From: Acidimicrobiales bacterium
Lineage (GTDB): Bacteria; Actinomycetota; Acidimicrobiia; Acidimicrobiales; DATDAH01
Reading direction: 5' to 3'
Assembly: GCA_016794585.1 (NCBI GenBank)
Contig: JAEUJM010000015.1
Coordinates: 1 to 64,000, forward strand
DNA length: 64,000 bases
Below are positions 1,971 through 56,010 of the stretch, piece after piece (position 1 is the stretch's first letter; every line of letters starts with the position of its first letter). A program made the translations under genes and the position numbers. The notes below the pieces were generated by a model. It did not search any database. It saw only the letters and a program-made list of their open reading frames with translations, and was not told the DNA's origin.

Positions 1971-4215
1971 CTGTCCGCTGTGCGAGGCCACGTGCGGGCT
2001 TGCGATCGAGGTGGAGGACGGCGCCGTGCGCCGCATCCGGGGCGACCGCGACGACGTCTTCTCCCACGGCTACCTCTGCCCCAAGGGCTCGTCGCTGAAG
2101 CACCTCCACGAGGACCCGGACCGGCTCCGGACCCCCCTGATCAAGGAAGACGGCCGCTTCCGGCCCGCCTCCTGGGACGAGGCCTTCGCCGTGATCGACG
2201 AGCGGGTGCGGCCGATCCTCGACGAGCATGGCAAGGACGCCGTCGCGCTCTACAGCGGCAATCCGTGGTCCCACAACTACGAGACCATCGTCTACACGCC
2301 GTCGCTCTACGGCGCCGTCGGCCGCAACCGCTTCGCCGCCGCCAGCGTCGACCAGCGCCCCCGCGAGATCGTCTCCAGCGTCCACTTCGGGGCCCGCACG
2401 GCCTTCCCCGTGCCCGACCTCGACCGCACGGACCTGCTCGTACTGCTCGGCACCGACCCGCTCGAGTCGAACGGCAGCCTCGCCACCGCGCCCGACTGGC
2501 CGGGTCGGCTCGCCGCCATCCGGGCCCGTGGCGGCCGCCTCATCGTGATCGACCCCCGCCGGTCCAAGACCGCCGAGGTCGCCGACGAGCACCTCGCCAT
2601 CGTCCCCGGCACCGACGCCGCGCTCCTGGTCGGGCTCGCCCACACCCTCTTCGACGAAGGCCTCGTCCGCCCGGGGCCGGCGGGGGAGTGGGTCGACGGC
2701 CTCGACGCCGCCGGCGCCGCCCTGGCCCCCTTCACCCCCGAGGTGGTGGCCGACACCTGCGGCATCACCCCGGACCGGATCCGGGCCCTCGCCCGCGACC
2801 TGGCCACGACCGAGCGGTCCGCCCTCCACGGCCGCCTCGGCACCTGCCTGGCCGACCTCGCCACCCTGTCGTCGTGGCTGCTCGACGTGGTCAACATCGC
2901 CGCCGGCAACCTCGACCGGCCCGGCGGCGTGATGTTCAGCCGCCCCGCCGCCCTCGGGTTCAACACCACCGGGAGACCCGGGGTCGGCATGGGCACCGAC
3001 TACGGGAACGTCCGCAGTCGGGTGAGGGGCCTCCCCGGCGCCTTCGACCAGCTCCCCGTGGCCTGTCTCGCCGAGGAGATTGAGACCCCCGGCGACGGCC
3101 AGGTCCGGGCCCTCGTCACCATCGCCGGCAACCCCGTCCTGTCCACGCCCAACAGCGACCGCCTGGCAGCCGCCCTCGACCGCCTCGACCTCATGGTCTC
3201 GGTGGACCTCTACCTGAACGAGACCACCCGCCACGCCGACGTGATCCTGCCGGTGCCGTCGCACCTCGAGCGCAGCCACTACGACGTGGCCTTCTACCAG
3301 TTCGCCATCCGCAACATCGCCAACTACTCACCGCCCGTCCTGGAGCGTACCGACGACCTGCCCCCGGAGTGGCAGACGCTGGTGCGCCTCACCGGCGTCC
3401 TCCAAGGCAAGGGCCCGGACCCCGACGTGGCCGCGATGGACGACGAGCTCGCCGGCCTGCTCGCCCTCCTCGCCACGGCCGACCCCTTCAGCCCCGTGCA
3501 CGGCTGGGACCCCGCCGACGTGCTGGCCGCGCTCGAGCCCCGCACCGGCCCCGAGCGCATCCTCGACCTCAACCTGCGCATCGGGCCCTACGGCGACGGC
3601 TTCGGCACCCGGCCCGCCGGCGACGGTCCTGGCCTCTCCCTCGACGTCCTGCTGGCCCACCCCCACGGCGTGGACCTCGGCCCGCTCGAGCCCCGCCTGC
3701 CCGACATGCTGCGCACCCCGACCGGCCGCATCGACCTGGCCACTCCCGAGTTCGTGGCCGACCTCGACCGGCTCCATGCACGCCTCGACGAGGACCGCCC
3801 GCCCCTGGTGCTGATCGGGCGCCGCCACCTCCGCTCGAACAACTCGTGGCAGCACAACACGCCGACGCTGGTGAAGGGCCGGGAGCGGTGCGTCCTGGCG
3901 ATGCATCCCGACGACGCCGCCGCCCGGGGCCTCGGCGACGGCGACCGCGCCCTCCTGCGCACCGACCTGGCCGAGCTGACGGTCACCGTCGACGTCACCG
4001 ACGCGGTCATGGCCGGTGTGGTGAGCCTGCCCTACGGGTGGGGCCACGACCTCGACGGCGCCCGACTGTCGGTGGCCTCGACCCGGCCGGGGGTCAACGT
4101 CAACCGCCTCGCCGGCAACGACCGGGTCGACCCTCTCTCGGGCAACCCCCACCTCAACGGCTTCCCCGTCGAGGTCACGGCGGCGCCGCCCGAGCCCGAC
4201 CCTGCCGGCGGTTGA
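1924..4215 (+). CDS. Molybdopterin-dependent oxidoreductase with [4Fe-4S] N-terminus
   Basis: 763 aa. The N-terminus carries TCPLCEATCGLAIEVE and CPKG (residues ~16-55), the C-x2-C-x3-C-x~27-C cluster ligands of the DMSO-reductase superfamily. The catalytic body follows (LLVLLGTDPLESNGS, GRLIVIDPRRSKTAE), and a C-terminal dinucleotide-binding domain ends with LSGNPHLNGFPVEV. Members are cytoplasmic or exported redox enzymes; no twin-arginine signal is present, so I infer a cytoplasmic protein. No residue in the window identifies the substrate and no partner subunit or cofactor gene is adjacent. ATG 1924 is chosen because the cluster begins soon after it; an in-frame start at 1873 would add 17 unrelated residues. 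The gene ends before a strong hairpin, facing the arylsulfatase. Confidence 0.85.
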   Translation: MSSIPPPRGAGTHLRTCPLCEATCGLAIEVEDGAVRRIRGDRDDVFSHGYLCPKGSSLKHLHEDPDRLRTPLIKEDGRFRPASWDEAFAVIDERVRPILDEHGKDAVALYSGNPWSHNYETIVYTPSLYGAVGRNRFAAASVDQRPREIVSSVHFGARTAFPVPDLDRTDLLVLLGTDPLESNGSLATAPDWPGRLAAIRARGGRLIVIDPRRSKTAEVADEHLAIVPGTDAALLVGLAHTLFDEGLVRPGPAGEWVDGLDAAGAALAPFTPEVVADTCGITPDRIRALARDLATTERSALHGRLGTCLADLATLSSWLLDVVNIAAGNLDRPGGVMFSRPAALGFNTTGRPGVGMGTDYGNVRSRVRGLPGAFDQLPVACLAEEIETPGDGQVRALVTIAGNPVLSTPNSDRLAAALDRLDLMVSVDLYLNETTRHADVILPVPSHLERSHYDVAFYQFAIRNIANYSPPVLERTDDLPPEWQTLVRLTGVLQGKGPDPDVAAMDDELAGLLALLATADPFSPVHGWDPADVLAALEPRTGPERILDLNLRIGPYGDGFGTRPAGDGPGLSLDVLLAHPHGVDLGPLEPRLPDMLRTPTGRIDLATPEFVADLDRLHARLDEDRPPLVLIGRRHLRSNNSWQHNTPTLVKGRERCVLAMHPDDAAARGLGDGDRALLRTDLAELTVTVDVTDAVMAGVVSLPYGWGHDLDGARLSVASTRPGVNVNRLAGNDRVDPLSGNPHLNGFPVEVTAAPPEPDPAGG

Positions 4216-7970: not shown

Positions 7971-8225
7971 GTGGCTGGTGAGATCAATCAACGAGAGCTT
8001 CGAAACGACAGCGGGCGGATCATGCGGGCGCTCGCTGAAGGCGAGTCGTTCATCGTCACTCGGAACGGCGAACCGGTCGGTGAGCTGACCCCACTGCGCC
8101 GACACCGCTTCGTGCGGGCCGAGGCCGCCACGGAGCTCTTCCGAAGCGCTGCCCCGGTCGACCCCGTCCGACTCCGCCACGACCTCGACCAGATCGCGGA
8201 TCAGGACATCGACCCTCGTGGCTAG
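7971..8225 (+). CDS. Phd/YefM-family antitoxin (VapB-type)
   Basis: 84 aa. It opens MAGEINQRELRNDSGRIMRALAEGE and continues FIVTRNGEPVGELTPL, the Phd/YefM fold in which the N-terminal half binds DNA and the C-terminal half (here FVRAEAATELFRSAAPVDPVRL) wraps the toxin. Start GTG 7971 is preferred over the longer in-frame GTG 7917 because the conserved domain begins there and a TANNNT box precedes it by six bases. It overlaps the PIN toxin gene by 8 bp, a typical antitoxin-first operon, and probably represses its own promoter together with the toxin. Confidence 0.85.
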   Translation: MAGEINQRELRNDSGRIMRALAEGESFIVTRNGEPVGELTPLRRHRFVRAEAATELFRSAAPVDPVRLRHDLDQIADQDIDPRG

Positions 8226-8631
8226 CCCCAACCGACCTGAACGGGGGCTCCTTGACACGTCGGTGGTCATCGATCTCGAACACGTGCCCGTCAGCTCTCT
8301 GCCGCTCGAGGTTGCCATCAGCGCCATCACGCTCGCCGAGCTCACCGCCGGCCCACACGCCACCGACGACCCCAGAGAACGCAGCCGACGCCAAGACCGG
8401 CTGCAACGAACCGAGGCCGCCTTCGACCCGCTGCCCTTCGGCGCGGACGCGGCCCGCGCCTACGGCAGGGTCTTCTCCGCCGTCATGAACGCCGGACGCA
8501 AGCCCCGGGGAGCTCGAGCCGTGGATCTGCTGATCGCCGCCACCGCCGTGGCTGAGGGTCTCCCCCTCTTCACCCGCAACCCCGACGACTTCCGAGCGCT
8601 CGACGACCTCATCGAGATCCACGCCGTGTAA
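8218..8631 (+). CDS. vapC: PIN-domain toxin (VapC family ribonuclease)
   Basis: 137 aa. PIN nucleases cut RNA (tRNA or rRNA in VapC toxins) with Mg2+ held by conserved acids. Visible here are LLDTSVVIDLE (Asp13), ITLAELTAGP (Glu41), RAVDLLIAATA and LFTRNPDDF, the full acidic set in order. GTG 8218 lies inside the antitoxin's last codons, so translation is coupled. Nothing suggests inactivation. The call is firm; the RNA target is unknown. Confidence 0.9.
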   Translation: MASPNRPERGLLDTSVVIDLEHVPVSSLPLEVAISAITLAELTAGPHATDDPRERSRRQDRLQRTEAAFDPLPFGADAARAYGRVFSAVMNAGRKPRGARAVDLLIAATAVAEGLPLFTRNPDDFRALDDLIEIHAV

Positions 8632-15874: not shown

Positions 15875-16177
15875 ATGGCCGAGTCGCAGCGCCCGCTGCG
15901 GGCGCTCGTCGAGACGCACCGCCACGAGATCAAGGCGGCGGTGGCGCGCCACCGGGGCGCCTCCGCGACGGTCTTCGGCTCGGTCGCGCGGGGCGATGAG
16001 TCACCGCAGAGCGATGTGGACTTCCTCGTCGAGTTCCAACCGGGCGCCTCGCTGTTCGACTTGGCCAGGCTGGAGCTCGAGCTGCAGGAGCTGCTCGGCG
16101 TCGGGGTGGACGTCGTTTCCGCGGGCAGCCTGCTGCCAGAAGACGAGGACGTACGCGCCCAGGCCGTCGCCTTGTGA
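15875..16177 (+). CDS. mntA: MNT-type nucleotidyltransferase antitoxin (MntA)
   Basis: 100 aa. The minimal nucleotidyltransferase signature is intact: ATVFGSVARGDESPQSDVDFLVEF, that is GSxARG with two Asp in SDVD and the strand LVEF. In MntA-HepT systems this enzyme adds AMP to a tyrosine of the HEPN toxin and silences it. The HEPN gene follows with a 4-base GTGA overlap but is frameshifted. The 3' part, ELQELLGVGVDVVSAGSL, is typical of the family. Confidence 0.85.
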   Translation: MAESQRPLRALVETHRHEIKAAVARHRGASATVFGSVARGDESPQSDVDFLVEFQPGASLFDLARLELELQELLGVGVDVVSAGSLLPEDEDVRAQAVAL

Positions 16178-16589
16178 GCCGCAGCGACTGGAAGCGCCTC
16201 AACGACATCCGGCGGATGTGCGTGACCGCAGCGGAGCTCGTCGAGCGCGGTCGACCCGCCCTGGAGGCCGAGCCCGTGCTTGGCTCGCTCTGGAACGGAT
16301 CGTCGAGATCGCCGGTGAGGCTGCCAGCCAGATCGACGACGAGACCCGAGCCGCCCATCCACGGGTTGCGTGGCGGGAGCTGGCTGCGACCCGGACGATC
16401 CTCGCTCACGCCTATCACCGGGTCGACCGTGGCCTGCTCTGGGACATCGCTGAACGAGACCTTCCTCAGGTCGCGGAGGCGCTAGGGCACCCACGACCGA
16501 CGACGGCTCGGACCACGATGGCACCTCGTGACCTCGCCAGTGAGCTCGTGATCGAATGGACCGCAGTGGTCGGCCGCAGTCGCCGGTGA
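16174..16589 (+). pseudogene. hepT: HepT-like HEPN toxin, frameshifted
   Basis: The first frame from GTG 16174 gives MSRSDWKRLNDIRRMCVTAA and continues to EPVLG; the second frame continues LALERIVEIAGEAASQID, then RTILAHAYHRVD (the R-x4-H-x-Y HEPN RNase motif) and ends at TGA 16587-16589. One nucleotide is missing near 16279-16281; restoring it gives EPVLWLALERIVEI. As read, the catalytic motif is lost from the translated product. The two halves remain well conserved, so the change is recent or an assembly error. No slippery heptamer is visible. Confidence 0.8.
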
Positions 16590-16619
16590 CGGTCACGCCC
16601 GCTCGAGAAGGGCACCAAC

Positions 16620-16868
16620 ATGTCTGACGAACTCGATCTCGTGGCGGATCTGAACGCCGAGGACGATGACGGCCTCGGCTGGTCGACGATCGCCGACGCC
16701 GTCGACCCCCAGCGGGTGGTGCCTGGGGCGATGCTCCTCGCCGGCAACGGCGAGGCCCGTGCCGTGGTTCGCATCGCGGCTGTTGATCCTGATGGGCAGG
16801 TCCACTTCGCGGTTCTGCCGGGCTCGGTGGCCAAGAACCGGCACCTTCTCAGCCGCGTCGTCGCCTGA
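16620..16868 (+). CDS. Hypothetical protein, 82 aa
   Basis: ATG 16620 with AGAAGGG eight bases upstream. The acidic N-terminus (MSDELDLVADLNAEDDDGLG) leads into a compact beta-rich part (RVVPGAMLLAGNGEARAVVRI, QVHFAVLPGSVAKNRHLL). It resembles small binding domains found next to toxin-antitoxin genes, but I do not recognise the family. It lies between the frameshifted HEPN gene and the duplicated helicase tail. Confidence 0.55.
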   Translation: MSDELDLVADLNAEDDDGLGWSTIADAVDPQRVVPGAMLLAGNGEARAVVRIAAVDPDGQVHFAVLPGSVAKNRHLLSRVVA

Positions 16869-26377: not shown

Positions 26378-26539
26378 GCCGCACGCTCCCACCGGGAGAC
26401 GGTCACCGCGGCGCCGCTATTCTGTGGGCGGATCAGTGGGTGACGGGCAGGCTCGGGCGATGGGACGGGTCACGCAGGCGGGGCGCGACGGCGTCGCTCC
26501 CGTGCACCCGCACGGCAATCGGCGACGTGGAGATCGATG

Positions 26540-29142
26540 ATGTCTGACGGGAAGAAGATCTTCGTCAGCTACCGCGAGGCGGACACCGAGAGCACCGCGG
26601 GTCGCATCCGCGACGCCCTCGTCCGCGAGTTCGGCAACGACCGGATCTTCTACGACGGCGAGAGCCTCTACTGGGGCGACAACTGGAAAGAGGCGATCGA
26701 CGAGGCCCTGGGCCAGACCGACGCCATGGTCGTGGTCATCGGCCAGCGGTGGTTCGACGAGTTCGAGCGCAAGGCCGCCTCCCGTGAGCGCGACGTGCAC
26801 AAGCAGGAGGTGCAGGCCGCGCTCCGCCAGGGCGTCCCGATCTTCCTCGCCCTGGTCGACGACGTCACCAAGCTGGACACGAACCGACTCCCGCACGGGC
26901 TCAAGAAGCTCGGCTCGATGGAGGCCCAGCCGCTGCTGAAGAAGGGCTTCATGGAGCGCTTCGTGCCCACCTTCGTCGAGGAGATCGGCAAGCGGCTCTC
27001 CGGCCCGGGCCCGGCCGCGAACGATCCCAGGACGGTGATCGTCGCCCCTCACGGCGAGGCCGACTTCCGGGAGATCGCACCCGCCGCCCGTGCCGTCCCC
27101 ACGGGCTCGACGATCTACGTCCGGCCCGGCCACTACCTCGAGGCGGTGACCGTGGACCGCGAGCTGCAGATCGTGGCCGAGGGCGAGCGCGACGAGGTGG
27201 TCCTCGAGGTGGACGACGGGACGGCCCTCACCTGGACGGCTCCGCAAGGCCTCGTCGAAGGGCTCACCGTCGTGGCCGCGGCCCGACGCGACGGCGTGGG
27301 CGTCCGGGTCGCCGCCGGCCGGGTGACCCTGGACGGCTGCGCGGTCTCGGCTCGGGGCCACGACCGGTCGACCGGGGTGATCATCGAGGGCGACACGGTC
27401 CGCCCCGTCCTGCGCCAGTGCGAGATCGCCGAGGTGCAGGTGGGCGTCGTGTTCGGCGAAGACACCCACGGCCGCCTCGAGGACTGCCGGATCGAGGGCG
27501 GGGAACACGGGCTGGACGTCCGCGACGGCGCCGATCCCGTCCTCCATGGCGGTGAGGTCCGCGGTGGCACGAGCGCGCTGCACGTCGCGCGGGCCCTCGG
27601 CAGCTACGAGGCGGCGGTCCTCGCCAGCCCCGGGACCGCGTTGGCGGTGTCGGGCGAGGGGGCCGCGCCGTGGGTGAAGGACTGCCGGATCGAAGGTGTC
27701 CGCACCGGCGTCGCCATCCTGGACGGCGCCGGCGGCACCTTCACCGACCTGGAGGTCGCCGGCGAGCCGGCCGTGGGGGTCGAGGTGGCGGGCCCGTCGG
27801 CGCCCGAGCTGCACCGGGTGGCGGTGGTCGGGGGCGGGGCGGCCGGCACCGAGGGGTTCTGCGTGGGCGGCGGCTCGTCCCCCCGCCTGCTGCACTGCAA
27901 CGTGACGAAGGTCGCGGTGGGCCTGGTGGTCAGCGGTGGCTCGCGGCCCGACGTCGAGGGCCTGCGGGTGCACGAGGTGACCGATCAGGGCGTGCTCGTC
28001 ACCGGCGCCTCCGCCCCTCGTCTCGCCGATTGCGAGATCTCGTCCGTCACCACCGGCCTCCTGGTCGACGGCGCGTCGACGCCCACCACCGACGGCCTGC
28101 AGGTGCACGGCTCCAAGGGCCACGCGCTGCACCTCACCGAGCAGAGCGCCGGCACCTGGGCGAACGTGGTGGTCACCGGATCGACGCTGGCGGGCATCAA
28201 GGTGGACGGAGGGGCCGACCCCACCTTCACCGACGTGACGATGAGCAAGCTCACCCGTCACGGCATCGTCGTCTACACCGCCGGGCGGGGCAGGTTCGAG
28301 CGGGTCCGCATCGAGGGCTCGAGCGCCGTGCTGAACGGCAAGCACTTCCCGGCGATCGCGGTCGCCGACGACGAGAGCAACCCGACGTTCCGTGACTTCA
28401 CCGTCGAGGGCGGGGCATCGTGCGGGGTCTGGGTCAGTGAACGGGGCGCCGGCACGTTCGAGGACGGGCGGGTGACGGGGACGGGCAAGCAGGGAGTGAT
28501 CGTCGAGACCGGCGGCGTCCCTACGTTCTCGGGCCTCGAGGTGCAGGGCGCCGGGGGCTCGGGCATCGCGGTGCTCGGCGGCGCGCCTCGGCTCACGCGG
28601 TGCACCATCGGCGACGTGGGCCGTCGGGGGTCGCCGTCTCCGGCGAGGCGCAGCCCGTGTTCGAAGAGATCACGATCGCGGGGTGCTCCTGGCACGGCAT
28701 CGCCGTCGAGGGTGCGGCCGTCGGGACCTTCCGACACCTCGACGTCTCGGGCGCCAAGAGGAACGGGGTCGACGTCGACGGCGGGTCGATCAGCCTCACG
28801 GACGCCACGATCCACGAGACGGTCGGGTTCGGCGTCGACGTCACCAAGGGTCGGGCAGAGATCGTCGACTCCGAGATCCACCGCACCGGAGCGGCGGCGA
28901 TCCGCGTCGCCAAGGACGGCGTGATCTCCGTCCGCGGCACGGAGGTGCACCACATCAAGGCCCCGGTCCAGATCAGGAAGTCCTGGTGGTCCGGGGCGGT
29001 CTATGTGGGCAAGGGGGCCACCGCGGCGTTCGCGGACTGCTCGTTCCACGACAACTTCGCCTCGGAGAACCCGGTGATGCGCCATGCCCAGGCAAAGACC
29101 GACCTCAGCGGCTGCACGAACTACGGCACGCCTTGGCCGTGA
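26540..29142 (+). pseudogene. TIR-domain / right-handed beta-helix fusion protein, frameshifted
   Basis: The N-terminal ~145 residues are a bacterial TIR domain: KKIFVSYREADTESTAGRIR, DRIFYDGESLYWGDNW, AMVVVIGQRWFDEF. A linker leads to DPRTVIVAPHGEADF and over 600 residues of parallel beta-helix repeats with recurring G-x-x-V-x-x-G-A-x-P turns. TIR domains commonly cleave NAD+ or make signalling nucleotides. The frame breaks at 28618-28620: adding one base to the GGG run restores GDV-G-PSGVAVSGEA and gives an ~868-aa protein ending at TGA 29140-29142. ATG 26540 has GGAG seven bases upstream. A clean single-base loss suggests assembly error, phase variation or recent inactivation. Confidence 0.75.
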
Positions 29143-49405: not shown

Positions 49406-52400
49406 TCAGTCCACCGCCGAACCCGCGAGCAGCGCCCGGACCTCGGCGCGTGCGGCATCGAGGTCGTCCACGTCGCGCTCGATGGCGCCGCCGGCGTGGC
49501 AGAACACGAGGCGGGCCGCCGCGACGGCGAGTCCGGTGCTGATCGCGAGGGCCTCCGCGTAGGTGGCGAGCTGGAGGCGGTACTGGCCGAGCTTGGCATC
49601 CACCGCGGCCTCGTCGGCCACGGCGTCGGTCTTGTAGTCGACGATGACCAGGCCCTCGGGGCCCTCGTAGAGGAGGTCGACGTAGCCCTCGACGGCGCGG
49701 TCACCCAGGGGAGCGGCGACGTAGGCCTCCCGCCACAGGCGACCGCCGGCGAGCGCGGCCCGCACCGACGCCGACGCCAGCGCAGAGCGGGCGAGGGTCT
49801 CGACCGTTCCCGCAAGGTCCGGGACGGCCTCGGCGAAGGCCTGCTGGGCGGCGAGGTCGGCGAGCCCGTCGCCGGTGGCGAGATCGACGACCTGGAGGGT
49901 GGCGTGCACCGCCCGCCCGACGGCGGTGCCCGCCCGTCCCCGCCGGCGCTGGAACGCGGGGCGGCCGGACTCGTCCGTCGCGGTGGCGTCGTCCTCGACC
50001 ACCTCGTCGGCGAGATCGTCCCGCTCCGCTGACGCCGTGGGATCACCCGGCGGACCCGCGGTGGGGTCCTCGAGGCGGCCCAGGCGGGCCACCGCGGTGG
50101 CGGAGAGCACCCGCGGGTCCCGGTTGCGGCGCAGCAACGCCGCTCGACGGCTCCGCCAGCGGGGCCGGTCGTCGTCCGCGGGGGCGGCAGAGGTGGTCGG
50201 CGGTGCGACCGGGACGCCGACGACGAGATCCTCGGGCAGGCGCCGAACGACCTCCTCGCCGAGGTCCGCGCTGCAGCGGGCGAGCGTGGCGCCGTGGCAG
50301 TCCACGCCTTCGAGGTGATGGGTGCAGACGATGAGGTGGTCGCGGGCCCGGGTGCAGGCCACGTAGAGGAGGCGCTGGCGCTCGTGGGCGTCCATCTCGG
50401 ACTCGTACTCGGCCTGGCGGTCGAAGTTGGCGGTGCTCGTGTCCTTGCGGATGCCGATGCCCGGCCGGAGGTCGTCCTCGTCCCACACCACCGTGACGCC
50501 ACGGCGGCCGTTGCCCCGCGCAGTCGTGAGCCCGCTGACAACCGTGATGGGGAACTCGAGCCCCTTCGCGCCGTGCACGGTCTTGATGGACACCGCCTCG
50601 TCGTCGGTCTCGGGGAGCAGGGGCTCGTGCACCCGACTGGTCTCCCGTGACTGGAGGTCGGCCCAGCGCAGGAAGGCGCGGAGACCGTGCCCGCCCGACT
50701 CTTCGAACTGGCGGGCCTGGTCGACGAGGAAGCGCAGCCGGCGCCACACCTCCCGCGGCCGGCGGTGGCCCAGTCCGAGGGCGAAGGCCTGGCGGTCCTC
50801 GAACAGCCGCTGCAGCAGGGCGCTCGGCTCCAGCCACCAGCGTTGGGCCGCGAGCTCGCGCAGGTGGGCCATGCCCGCCACCACCGGGTGGTCGTCGGGC
50901 AGCCGGTCGGGCGGCGGTTTGCGCAGGCTCCACTCGCCGCCCGCTGCGACGTAGGTGAAGAGGTCGACGTCCGAGCAGGCGTAGAGCGGCGAGCGCAGGG
51001 CGGCCACCAGCGCGATCCGGTCGGTGGGGTCGTCGATGGCCCGCAGGGCGCTCAGGGCGTCGCGCACCTCCTGGGTGTCGTAGACGAGGGTGCCCGTGTC
51101 GACCCGGTAAGGGATGGCGAGATCGTCGAGGGCGTCCTCGAGCTGACCGAGCGAGGTGCGGGTGGGCAACAAGACGGTGATGTCGGACAACCGGGCCGGG
51201 CGCCACGCCGGCGTTCCGGGAGCGGGCCGTTCCTCCTCGACGGGCCAGGCCGCGGGGTCGTCGCGGATGAGGGCGATGGCACGCGCGACGTCTGCGGCCT
51301 CTTCGGCCCGGAGCTCGGCGGCCTTCAGGGGCTTGGGTCGGCCGCCGCCGAGCAGCACGACCCGGTGGTCGCCGTGATCGCTGGCTGATCGTGCCGCGAC
51401 GAGCGCCCGATACTCGGGCTGCGCGGTGGGGACCTCCTCGGGCATCACCGAGGAGAAGATGTGGTTGACCCATTCCAGGATGGGCGCCACGGTCCGGAAG
51501 TTCTGCACCAGGGCGACGGGCTCGCCGCCGGCGAAGGCGGCCCGGGCCTGCAGGAACAGGCGGATGTCGGCCCGCCGGAACCGGTAGATGGACTGCTTGG
51601 GGTCGCCCACGAAGAAGATGCGGCCGGCCTCCACGGGCACGTCCGCCCAGTGGGGCGCCGCGACGGGGTCGGACAGTGCCGCGGCGATGCGCGTGGCGAC
51701 CTCGATCTGGATGGGGTCGGTGTCCTGGAACTCGTCCAGCAGGAGGCGCTGGTACCGCTCGTGCAGGGAACGCCGGGCGCGGGGGCTGGTGCGCACGAGC
51801 TCGCGGGCGAGCACCAGCAGGTCATGGAACTCGAGGCGACCCTCGTGGCGCCGCCGCTCGGCCTCGGCGTGGGTGAAGTGGGCGAGGCGCACCCGCAGGC
51901 GCTGGAGCACGTCGTCGGTCAGGTCCGCGAGCAGGGAGCGCCCGACGGTGCCGAGGTCGTCGACCGCGGCGCGGGCCGCGGCGACGTCGTGCCACCGGTC
52001 CTTGCGCCCGGACGAGCCGCCCTTCCACTTGGCGGGGTACTGGTGGAGCTGGGCCACCCGTTGGTACGGGTCCGCGTTGTCGAGGATGGCGTGGGCCTGG
52101 GGCAGCCAGGCGGTGACGAGCTTCTTGTACAGCGTGTCGTCGTGATCCGTGCACGACGAGAGGAGCGCCTCGACCGCGTCGACCGCCCGGCGCAGCGGGG
52201 CGAGGTCGAGTGCCGGCAGGGGGCCCGGATCGGGCTCGTCCGGATCGAGGCGGTCCCAGTTGTCGCTGAAGACCGCGGCGACGTCACGGAGCGAGGCCTG
52301 GGTGGGGAGCCCGTCGATGTGGATGTTGAGCAGGCTCGCGGTGACGACGAGCTCCTCGGCGCCCGGGTCGTCGAAGAGCTCGTCGAGGAACAGGGCCCAG

Positions 52401-52840
52401 CGGTCCTCGAAGGCCAACTGCGAGCTCACCTCGTCGAGCACCTCGACGCGCGGGGGGAGGCCGACGTCGAGGGGGTGCTCGCCCAGGATGCGCAGGGCGA
52501 ACGAGTGCAGGGTGCCGATGGCGGCCACGTCGCTCTCGGCGAGCGCGGCTTCGGCCGCGGCGCGGGAGGCGTCGTCGAGCTCGCCGTCGAGCAGCACCTC
52601 GAACTGCTGGCGGATGCGGTCGCGCAGCTCGGCGCCGGCGGCTTCGGTGAAGGTGATGGCCGCGATGTGACGCAGCGGGACGCCCTCGCGGAGCACCAGG
52701 TTGGTGACCCGCGTGACGAGCTGGGTGGTCTTGCCGGTGCCGGCGCCAGCCTCGACGAACAGGGTCTCGTGCAGCCCGGTGCGGGAGATCCGTTCGCGTT
52801 CGGCGTCGTCGACCAGTCCCGCCGACGGTGGCCCCGTCAT
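49406..52840 (-). CDS. addA: AddA-like helicase-nuclease subunit
   Basis: 1144 aa. LFVEAGAGTGKTTQLVTRVT (Walker A, residues ~28-47), LLLDEFQDTDPIQIEVATRI, FVGDPKQSIYRFRRADI and KTVHGAKGLEFPITVVSGL give the UvrD-type motor; the C-terminal RecB-like nuclease has LVIVDYKTDAVADEAAVDAK and QLATYAEALA. It resects double-strand breaks for recombination with the AddB-like partner encoded immediately upstream (4-base ATGA overlap). Chi recognition cannot be judged. Confidence 0.9.
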   Translation of the reverse strand: MTGPPSAGLVDDAERERISRTGLHETLFVEAGAGTGKTTQLVTRVTNLVLREGVPLRHIAAITFTEAAGAELRDRIRQQFEVLLDGELDDASRAAAEAALAESDVAAIGTLHSFALRILGEHPLDVGLPPRVEVLDEVSSQLAFEDRWALFLDELFDDPGAEELVVTASLLNIHIDGLPTQASLRDVAAVFSDNWDRLDPDEPDPGPLPALDLAPLRRAVDAVEALLSSCTDHDDTLYKKLVTAWLPQAHAILDNADPYQRVAQLHQYPAKWKGGSSGRKDRWHDVAAARAAVDDLGTVGRSLLADLTDDVLQRLRVRLAHFTHAEAERRRHEGRLEFHDLLVLARELVRTSPRARRSLHERYQRLLLDEFQDTDPIQIEVATRIAAALSDPVAAPHWADVPVEAGRIFFVGDPKQSIYRFRRADIRLFLQARAAFAGGEPVALVQNFRTVAPILEWVNHIFSSVMPEEVPTAQPEYRALVAARSASDHGDHRVVLLGGGRPKPLKAAELRAEEAADVARAIALIRDDPAAWPVEEERPAPGTPAWRPARLSDITVLLPTRTSLGQLEDALDDLAIPYRVDTGTLVYDTQEVRDALSALRAIDDPTDRIALVAALRSPLYACSDVDLFTYVAAGGEWSLRKPPPDRLPDDHPVVAGMAHLRELAAQRWWLEPSALLQRLFEDRQAFALGLGHRRPREVWRRLRFLVDQARQFEESGGHGLRAFLRWADLQSRETSRVHEPLLPETDDEAVSIKTVHGAKGLEFPITVVSGLTTARGNGRRGVTVVWDEDDLRPGIGIRKDTSTANFDRQAEYESEMDAHERQRLLYVACTRARDHLIVCTHHLEGVDCHGATLARCSADLGEEVVRRLPEDLVVGVPVAPPTTSAAPADDDRPRWRSRRAALLRRNRDPRVLSATAVARLGRLEDPTAGPPGDPTASAERDDLADEVVEDDATATDESGRPAFQRRRGRAGTAVGRAVHATLQVVDLATGDGLADLAAQQAFAEAVPDLAGTVETLARSALASASVRAALAGGRLWREAYVAAPLGDRAVEGYVDLLYEGPEGLVIVDYKTDAVADEAAVDAKLGQYRLQLATYAEALAISTGLAVAAARLVFCHAGGAIERDVDDLDAARAEVRALLAGSAVD

Positions 52841-55800
52841 CCCGCCACCTCCCCGGCGTCGTCATCTGCGGGTGCCGGTGGAAGGAGCCGGGTGAGCACC
52901 GCCACCTCGGGCGCGTCCGCCTTGGCCAGCTGGTGCTCGTCCCGGTCGCGAGGGCACAGTCGATCGAAGTCGCAGAACCCGCAGTTCTCGTGCGTGCGCC
53001 AGAAGGTCTCGTACCCGCCGGGCTGCGCCGGGAAGGCGCCGGCCTCGATGCCGTCGGTGATGGCGGTGAGCACCTCGCGGAAGCGGGCCCGGTGCCCGTC
53101 CTCCCACGGCCCGCCGTGCAGCAGGTAGTCGCCCCGTGCGCTGAGCATCCAGAAGTAGCTCGACGTCCCGGTGCCACCGAAGCGCTGGGCCACGGCCTCG
53201 GCGTACAACCCGAGCTGGAGCGTGGTGCCGCCCAGGACGGGATCCGACTCGAGGTCCTTGTACGCGCTGCCTTTCCCGCTCTTGTAGTCGACGACCACGT
53301 GCCCGCCGTCGACGGTGCGGTCGACGCGGTCGATGTAGCCACGGAAGGCCAGCGTCCGACCTCCCTCGAGCTCGATGCGCAGGGGCTCCTCTCCGTCGAT
53401 GCCGAACGGCTGCTCGACGGCCATCGGGGTGGACCCGAAGGCGGCTCGCCGCGCTGCGTCGTCGGCGAGGAACGCGTCGAGATCGGACAGGAGGAACCGC
53501 TGCTCGAGCCGCCACAACAGCTCGCGTCCCGTGCGGCCCTCGCCCCGGAAGCGGGCGAACACCTCGGCGGCGATCTCGCGGAGGCGGTCCCGGTCCGCCG
53601 CGGACCACGGCTCGTCGGGGTCGGGTGGGCCCTCGGGTCGCTCGATGGCCTCGCGGACGTATCGCTCGAGGACCTCGTGGAGCAGCGTGCCGCGATCGGC
53701 CGCCCCGATGGTGGTGACCGCCTCGGGCTCGGGGCGCTCGGCCAGCCCCAGCACCTGCCCGAGGAAGTAGCGGAACGGGCAGGAGGCCCAGGACTGCATG
53801 GCGGTGGCCGACAACCGCTTGCCCCCCGACGGGCTGGGGACGGGGAGCCCGGCGAGGTTGCCGTCCCATTCGGTGAGGTGCTCGCTGCGCCGAGCCCCTT
53901 GCGCGACGAGGCCGCGGCGCAGGTCGGGGCCGACGGCGGTACCGGTGAGCGGGTCGTGCCCGGCGCGGCGACGCGCCTCGAGCGCCGACAGGTCGCGTTC
54001 CACCAGCGAGACCGCGGCCGGGGCCCGGACGAGCCCGTCCGAGAACGAGCGCACCTCTCCCACCACAGGTTCGCCGAGGGCGCCGAAGTCGGTGCTGTGG
54101 ACGCGCTCGCCGTGGAGCGCGGAGGCGGTGTCGAGCAGCCACCGGGAGGGCAGCCGTGAGCGGCTGCCACGCAGGTCGCCGCGGGGGAACACGAGGATCC
54201 GGTGCTCGCGGCCGGCGTCGAGGGCGGCGAGCAGGTGCCGGTGCTGCTGGCGGAGGCCCTCGTCGCGGGTGAGGAGCTCGCCGTCGGCCGCCGCTCTGAC
54301 GTCGTCGGGCAGGAGGGCATCCTCGGAGCGGGGGCTCGGGCACGTGCCCTCGGCCATCCCGAGGACGAAGACCGCGTCGAGGTCGAGACCCGGGGCCATC
54401 GCCAAGGGCCCGTAGAGGACGCCGTCGCCGAAGCGACCGACCCGCCCCGCGGGCTCGTCGAGCTCGGCTTCGACGGCCCGTCGGAAGGTGGTGGTGCTCG
54501 GATCGGGGTCGAGGGTGTCGAGCAGGGCCAGCCGCTCCAGCGCCGCCTCGACCCGCTCGCTGGACGTGACCTCTGCGTCGGGCCACCCCCGCCGGGCGCC
54601 GGCCCGGCCGAGGAGGTGGACGAGCAGCTGCTGGGCTCGCTCGACCTTCGCCGTCCACCCCGTGGCCGCATCGACCGCCTCGACCATCTCGGCGAGGGCC
54701 GCCACCCAGGCGGCGAGTGCGCGGGCCCGGTGGGCGTCGTCGAGCAGGGCGGCGAGGTACCCCGGGCTGGTGGTCGGATCCTCGCCCAGCAGCCGGTGGC
54801 GCTCCTCGCGCTGGACGGCCAGGGTCTCGAGCTTGGCGGACCAGTCGTCGAGGCCTCCGAGCACGCCGGCGGCCCGCGACAGGTTCTCCCAGGCGCTCGT
54901 GGGCACCACCTGGCCCTCGTGGCGCAACGGCCCGGCGCTGGCCACGGCCAGCACGTCGGCCCGGCCCCAGGCCCGCTCGGGCAGGGCGAGGGCGTCGAGC
55001 AGCGTGCGCCCCGCGACCCCGTCGGCGAGCCTCGTGCGGGACGGGCCGTTGTGGGGCAGGTGCGCGGCCGCGAACTGCTCGTGGAGCGTGCGGGCGTAGG
55101 GGTCGGGGTCGGGGTGGAAGACGCCGATGCGGTCGAGGGGGGTGCCCGCTTCGGCGAGCGCGAGCACCTCGCGGCACACGGCCCGCACCTCCTCGTCGGG
55201 GTCGGACACGCTGATGATCCGGGTGCCGGTGGGCGACTCGGGGCGCCCCCGTTCGTCGCCGGCCTCGATGCCGACGCCGCGACAGGTGCGGAGGACCGAG
55301 CCGTCGGCGTCGTCGTCGCCCGTCAGTCCGACGATGACCGTGGACGGCACCGCGGCGAGCGCGGCGGCGACGAGCTCGGACTGCGCGGGGCTGAGCCGCT
55401 CGGGGAGGAACCACACGAGACGGCCGAGCAACGCGATGGCGTCTTCCTCGCTCCGCAGGCGCTCGGCGGCGACGTGGGCCCGGGTGTCCTCGTCGTAGAA
55501 GCGGTCGCCCAGCTCGCGCCCCACGGCCCGGTGGATGGCGACCAGGCTCGCGGTCCGCTCGTCGCCGTCGGCGAGGCGTTGCCGCGTCGGGGGTCGAAGG
55601 CGGCTGAGCTCGGCGTACAGGGCGACCACCGCCGCCTCGCTGGCGTGGTGGTCGGCGACGCGGCCGAAGGGCTCGGGCCGGCGGCGCAGCACGACGCGGG
55701 CGGCCGCGGCGAGCGCGGCGTTGGTGAGGGGGTGGCCCGGCAGCGAGTCGACCGCCAGCAGCTCGGCAAGGCGGAGCGGCGTGAGGAACGAGACGTTGGC

Positions 55801-56010
55801 CAGGCCGGGGCTGGAGCCGGTGCCGACGATGCCGCCGCCGATCAGTCGACGCACCGAGAGACCCGCCAGGTTCGACGACACCACGACGGTGACGGGGTCG
55901 AGCGGGTGGCCCTGCTTGGCGGCGGCGATGGCCTCCGCAAGCGCCTCGGTGGCCGGCCGGCCGTACGCGACGGTGCGCACGACGGGGCGGTGGGCGGCGG
56001 ACGAGGGCAC
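52837..56010 (-). CDS. addB: AddB-like nuclease subunit with Fe-S cluster
   Basis: 1057 aa. The N-terminal motor region is degenerate: no GKT Walker A is seen (VVVSSNLAGLSVRRLIGGG stands there), as in AddB. The C-terminal PD-(D/E)xK nuclease has VVVDYKSGKGSAYKD and QLGLYAEAVAQ, and Fe-S ligands are in SCPFRYFLG and CGFCDFDRLCPRDRDEH. It pairs with AddA. GTG 56010 is supported by TAGGTT six bases upstream. Confidence 0.9.
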   Translation of the reverse strand: MPSSAAHRPVVRTVAYGRPATEALAEAIAAAKQGHPLDPVTVVVSSNLAGLSVRRLIGGGIVGTGSSPGLANVSFLTPLRLAELLAVDSLPGHPLTNAALAAAARVVLRRRPEPFGRVADHHASEAAVVALYAELSRLRPPTRQRLADGDERTASLVAIHRAVGRELGDRFYDEDTRAHVAAERLRSEEDAIALLGRLVWFLPERLSPAQSELVAAALAAVPSTVIVGLTGDDDADGSVLRTCRGVGIEAGDERGRPESPTGTRIISVSDPDEEVRAVCREVLALAEAGTPLDRIGVFHPDPDPYARTLHEQFAAAHLPHNGPSRTRLADGVAGRTLLDALALPERAWGRADVLAVASAGPLRHEGQVVPTSAWENLSRAAGVLGGLDDWSAKLETLAVQREERHRLLGEDPTTSPGYLAALLDDAHRARALAAWVAALAEMVEAVDAATGWTAKVERAQQLLVHLLGRAGARRGWPDAEVTSSERVEAALERLALLDTLDPDPSTTTFRRAVEAELDEPAGRVGRFGDGVLYGPLAMAPGLDLDAVFVLGMAEGTCPSPRSEDALLPDDVRAAADGELLTRDEGLRQQHRHLLAALDAGREHRILVFPRGDLRGSRSRLPSRWLLDTASALHGERVHSTDFGALGEPVVGEVRSFSDGLVRAPAAVSLVERDLSALEARRRAGHDPLTGTAVGPDLRRGLVAQGARRSEHLTEWDGNLAGLPVPSPSGGKRLSATAMQSWASCPFRYFLGQVLGLAERPEPEAVTTIGAADRGTLLHEVLERYVREAIERPEGPPDPDEPWSAADRDRLREIAAEVFARFRGEGRTGRELLWRLEQRFLLSDLDAFLADDAARRAAFGSTPMAVEQPFGIDGEEPLRIELEGGRTLAFRGYIDRVDRTVDGGHVVVDYKSGKGSAYKDLESDPVLGGTTLQLGLYAEAVAQRFGGTGTSSYFWMLSARGDYLLHGGPWEDGHRARFREVLTAITDGIEAGAFPAQPGGYETFWRTHENCGFCDFDRLCPRDRDEHQLAKADAPEVAVLTRLLPPAPADDDAGEVAG

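Follow-up and report, generated by a model that had tools for sequence, protein, structure and literature searches.

NAD+-consuming TIR domains destroy cellular NAD+ in immunity, and TIR enzymes such as SARM1, the plant TIRs and SPARTA become active once they are brought together. The means of gating known so far for bacterial TIR domains are helical repeats, STAND ATPases, STING-like or Argonaute modules, and separate partners; SARM1 is gated by its ARM and SAM domains, unlike a protein with a beta-helix arm. A survey of conflict systems lists TPR, HEAT, pentapeptide and beta-propeller arms, and the beta-helix is absent from its text (PMC7159879). DSR2 places an NADase and a long arm in a single polypeptide, in which binding of a phage tail tube protein switches the N-terminal NADase on by decoupling it from the long C-terminal domain (PMC10973363). 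In Thoeris, TIR sensors recognize the capsid, indicating that a phage structural protein can directly trigger a TIR system (PMC11312562).

Here we describe a gene of a high-GC bacterium that lies within the 64,000-nucleotide stretch of DNA analyzed in this work (hereinafter the window) and encodes, on the plus strand at 26537–29142, a TIR domain followed by a right-handed beta-helix. The order of parts, namely an N-terminal TIR_2 domain, a short linker (residues 156–166; 27002–27034, between the TIR domain and the beta-helix cap in alignments) and a repeat arm, is that of the bacterial TIR-TPR, TIR-PASTA and TIR-propeller proteins, from which the window protein differs in carrying a right-handed beta-helix as its arm. 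A search of those parts of the open-access literature that were available to us turned up no description of a TIR and beta-helix fusion.

The TIR domain and its candidate catalytic glutamate

The TIR domain spans residues 1–155 (26537–27001, plus strand), of which residues 8–109 match the Pfam family TIR_2 (PF13676) at 38.1 bits, above the cut-off of 28 (E 2.5e-9); the motifs that led the original prediction to call a TIR domain are present at this place. Structure prediction, which had been proposed as a check, modeled both the TIR fold and the beta-helix fold. While a single-sequence model left the TIR domain unfolded, a five-row alignment (the window TIR and four relatives) yielded a TIR model with a pLDDT of 76. 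The SARM1 TIR domain is the best match to this model in both Foldseek (E 1e-6) and VIA (Z 17.1 over 140 residues, rmsd 2.5, sequence identity about 16%), and SARM1 TIR domains are likewise the best solved structures retrieved with a five-sequence TIR profile (E 2e-14).

The window TIR resembles the SARM1/TIR-1 TIR in the position of the catalytic glutamate as well as in fold. In the profile alignment, the candidate catalytic residue E91 (codon 26807–26809, plus strand) falls on the glutamate of SARM1 DWVHKEIVTAL, which is E642; PDB entry 7cm7, a Foldseek match, names a SARM1 E642A mutant. The E91 column is glutamate in 30/30 related TIRs, and the residues at the invariant positions (Y12, R13 and D86) are retained as well. 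The glutamate, whose loss had been named as the observation that would speak against the fusion being what it seemed, is present at the SARM1 E642 position, and this alignment together with the SARM1 fold match backs the assignment of the TIR domain as a probable NAD+-consuming enzyme.

An adaptor role would account for some of the same features: the TIR domain would dock non-enzymatically on other TIR proteins, for example the TIR-TIR-STAND protein encoded on contig C19, and the beta-helix would be the working part. Such a role fits the divergence of the window TIR, which few members of its set exceed and which places it on a long branch (1.85–2.2 vs a median of 0.6–0.7), the YRE that it carries where most relatives have YRR (glutamate replacing the second arginine), and the presence of a second TIR machine in the same genome. 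We nevertheless consider it unlikely, since the catalytic glutamate and the invariant positions are retained and the closest structure is that of an NADase, SARM1.

A beta-helix arm encoded in two reading frames

The original prediction took 26540–29142 as one continuous fusion, but this span is not divisible by three and the gene is read in two frames. The first-frame open reading frame (26537–28924, plus strand) encodes 795 residues, the last ~100 of which are out of register: the beta-helix pattern is lost from it near 28621 and picks up in the other frame, in a continuation at 28600–29142 that ends with the stop codon at 29140–29142. The two coding frames meet at about 28619–28623, as judged from the beta-helix pattern and from GC3, which is 0.90–1.00 in the first frame to about 28.6 kb and 0.95 in the second frame beyond; because GC3 is high in each part's own frame, both parts read as coding sequence. 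The frame break is either an artifact of sequencing or assembly or a genuine mutation of recent date, and both explanations stand because our searches turned up no second genome of this species. We consider programmed frameshifting at this point unlikely. The break would cost the protein its last rungs, and the C-terminal fifth of the window copy may be damaged; a single open frame would give a protein of ~868 residues.

Taken further, the break could mark a decaying or dead gene whose truncated beta-helix no longer makes a working protein. The meeting of the two frames is consistent with decay, as are two negative results: the search for a sister genome carrying the gene intact came up empty, and exact-peptide scanning of about 85,000 genomes with the window protein returned no relative. 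Against it, GC3 remains high in the respective coding frame before and after the junction, as expected if the break is a sequencing error or arose very recently, and the TIR active-site residue is retained; we regard decay as doubtful.

The beta-helix directly follows the TIR domain on the same (plus) strand, as had been proposed, and opens with an N-terminal cap (VIVAPHGEADFREIAPAARAVPTGSTIYVRPGHYLEAVTV...; 27035–27260) that is recovered by BLASTP in a paralogue (L015, E 4e-10) and in a homologue from another genome (L112, E 1e-23), and by tblastn in L016 (E 5e-26). The first-frame part, cap included, covers about 530–535 residues (27035–28621, plus strand), is seen in the model and matches the Beta_helix family (PF13229) at 105.5 bits against a cut-off of 25.9 (E 2.8e-30). 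The second-frame part (28621–29142, plus strand) comprises 173 residues and the stop codon, scores as Beta_helix on its own (PF13229, E 7.5e-11) and aligns weakly with the paralogue C-terminus (BLASTP, E 0.001). The arm is thus longer than the ~600 residues first estimated, at about 708 residues over two frames (535 + 173). In a single-sequence model, residues 280–688 are all strand, with pLDDT mostly 80–94. Hydrophobic residues recur every 22–23 positions, one rung per repeat, from which we infer about 30 rungs including the cap. The modeled arm matches solved beta-helices whatever their function (VIA Z 25–33), so that the fold is established and the function uninformed; a PDB sequence search with the beta-helix returned zero matches. 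NosD and other right-handed beta-helix proteins share the fold, the match at profile level being weak (Pfam NosD, E 1.9e-7), and NosD itself was rejected as an assignment at 33 bits against the cut-off of 300 (NCBIfam TIGR04247); by its family name NosD is periplasmic, whereas the window protein starts with a TIR domain.

The same cap is common to the paralogue, the homologue mentioned above, a stand-alone 490-residue protein (G042) and beta-helices fused to EccA/CbxX-like AAA+ domains in Streptomyces plasmids and other large genomes of the phylum. In the latter proteins the homologous beta-helix precedes the EccA-like AAA+ domain (both the domain and the order were read by eye), and in Streptomyces type VII loci the beta-helix/AAA+ genes adjoin eccC, eccD and an S8 peptidase gene. 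The window protein was rejected as an EccA-like type VII ATPase, having no C-terminal CbxX/EccA AAA+ match, and a type VII EccC was detected in the source genome only far below cut-off. Judged from these sequence relationships, the module shared with type VII loci suggests a scaffold that binds proteins inside the cell, not one that reads carbohydrates.

With the TIR match beginning at residue 8, too close to the N-terminus for a signal peptide to fit in front of it, the protein appears to be cytosolic. The earlier view of the beta-helix as a sensor or scaffold is plausible and is strengthened by the occurrence of the same module as the non-catalytic part of EccA-like ATPases; the arm probably senses or scaffolds. 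The carbohydrate ligand proposed alongside fared less well: that the beta-helix has a carbohydrate as its ligand or substrate, on which the TIR domain reports, is very improbable. Lyases, epimerases or tailspikes account for many of the solved beta-helices with this fold, yet a profile search found no carbohydrate-active family over its cut-off in the protein (Pectinesterase reaches 14.2 bits against 27, E 0.018), there is no room for a signal peptide, any right-handed beta-helix would give such fold matches, and the nearest sequence relatives look like intracellular arms. An arm that binds or assembles proteins is likelier than a glycan reader, given relatives that look intracellular and a TIR domain that starts at residue 8.

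Recurrence and genomic context of the fusion

Confinement of the architecture to a single gene would have weakened the case for it, and the proposed search for the same fusion and its neighbors found two more. One is a paralogue encoded elsewhere in the source genome (G000, contig C19; L015:8719–11481), a 920-residue protein with TIR_2, TPRs, a C-terminal beta-helix and the same cap. In BLASTP comparisons with the window protein its TIR domain is 34% identical (E 9e-25) and its beta-helix 30% identical (E 4e-10), the beta-helix falling just short of the Pfam cut-off (22.5 vs 25.9 bits). In the TIR tree the two TIR domains are weakly supported sisters (83/87), which is compatible with one fusion event or two. 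The paralogue is divergent to a gene for a 1029-residue TIR-TIR-AAA16/NB-ARC-TPR STAND protein, which is followed by a patatin gene, whose product matches a PADLOC phospholipase effector (E 2.8e-40), and then by genes for a TrkA_N-RyR protein and a vWA protein. By its gene content, L015:8719–19900 is a conflict-type island. A gene for a T4SS coupling protein (TraG-like) lies near this island, at 2143–3573.

The second fusion, a 441-residue TIR-like and beta-helix protein (L112:9105–10430), is encoded in a genome from another family of the order (G721). It is collinear with the window protein from the TIR domain through the cap and rungs (27% identity over 447 aligned columns, E 1e-23), and its TIR domain lies under the Pfam cut-off (22.3 vs 28 bits). 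Its gene is flanked by M17 aminopeptidase and LigD-polymerase/Ku genes; the position beside LigD polymerase and Ku is a possible link to DNA-break repair.

Samples of up to 397 genomes of the order yielded the architecture only in the source genome and G721. A joined query of a typical TIR domain and a typical beta-helix found both at one place only in the source genome, among 396 of the phylum; searches of plasmids gave beta-helix or TIR matches, never both together. A scan with the two-paralogue alignment returned four TIR proteins, none with a beta-helix by phmmer, and neither a phage search nor an IMG/VR beta-helix scan gave a match. The architecture recurs and appears rare in the genomes sampled, a claim of lower confidence because the genome searches scored the best few candidates per genome.

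Other repeat arms on TIR domains of the order include PASTA and TPR arms (Pfam) and propeller- or WD-like arms (by eye); since these occupy the same place, the beta-helix reads as one more arm on a known plan of TIR plus repeat arm. One genome of this set (G008) encodes a TIR-PASTA protein (L017:4774–6666) and, separately, a TIR gene beside one for a CHAT-protease protein with a TPR-S sensor domain (L018:7068–11422).

From about 4 kb upstream to 3.6 kb downstream of the window gene lie genes for metabolic enzymes (a luciferase-like monooxygenase, an acyl-CoA ligase, a methyltransferase and an amidohydrolase, by Pfam match), a lipoprotein-like open reading frame and two open reading frames without a Pfam match. 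As originally noted, no STAND ATPase or defense partner is adjacent, the scanned neighbors being metabolic or without assignment, and none of them has a SIR2/SLOG or macro domain, as in the ThsA effector. Since the recognizable neighbors of the window copy are metabolic, guilt by association applies only to the paralogue. No PADLOC or NCBIfam defense family matches the TIR–beta-helix protein well. Assignment to Thoeris was rejected (18.7 bits against the ThcB4 cut-off of 220, no PADLOC ThsB match, no ThsA neighbor), as was assignment to the NLR-like TIR-STAND proteins, the window protein matching only TIR and beta-helix families and no NB-ARC/STAND NTPase. Elsewhere in the window, 15996–16868 encodes a HepT-like ribonuclease (PF01934) beside a small open reading frame, possibly a HepT/MNT toxin-antitoxin pair; 8218–8631 encodes a PIN-domain protein, possibly a VapC-type toxin, with a small open reading frame just upstream; and 49406–56010 contains a gene for a UvrD helicase with a PD-(D/E)XK nuclease and an overlapping large open reading frame, perhaps an AdnAB/AddAB-like pair.

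Proposed mechanism and implications

With a probability of roughly one half, we propose that the window gene encodes a solitary, cytosolic and regulated TIR effector that consumes NAD+ and whose beta-helix is a sensor or oligomerization arm binding a protein trigger. This reading builds on the two folds, the conserved catalytic glutamate, the recurrence of the domain pair, the lack of room for a signal sequence and the lack of a recognizable partner next door; what would follow from it is that the TIR domain is enzymatically active and gated by the beta-helix, that the ligand is a protein, and that the system acts in defense or regulated cell death. Weighing against it are the metabolic neighbors of the window copy, the poor matches to defense families, the divergent TIR domain with its YRE, the sub-cut-off TIR match of the G721 homologue and the frame break. 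At rest, the beta-helix would hold the TIR domains inactive, apart or unaligned. A protein trigger or partner would bind the beta-helix, which would then gather and line up the TIR domains, and the assembled TIR domains would consume NAD+ or make an ADP-ribose signal. By analogy, DSR2 may serve as a functional parallel: it works alike in joining an N-terminal NADase to a long C-terminal arm, with no homology claimed, and differs in that its NADase is a SIR2 rather than a TIR domain and its arm is mostly alpha-helical. It is also conceivable, if quite a long shot, that these proteins form a class of single-protein immune sensors in which a long beta-helix would recognize an invader protein, such as a phage structural protein, and align the TIR domains for NAD+ destruction without a STAND module or partner gene.

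The intact G721 homologue, which at 441 residues is short and practical to express, and the paralogue are better suited to experiments than the window copy. A beta-helix arm on a TIR domain would widen the known sensor repertoire, and would tie NAD+-based conflict proteins to an intracellular beta-helix module also present in type VII EccA-like ATPases.
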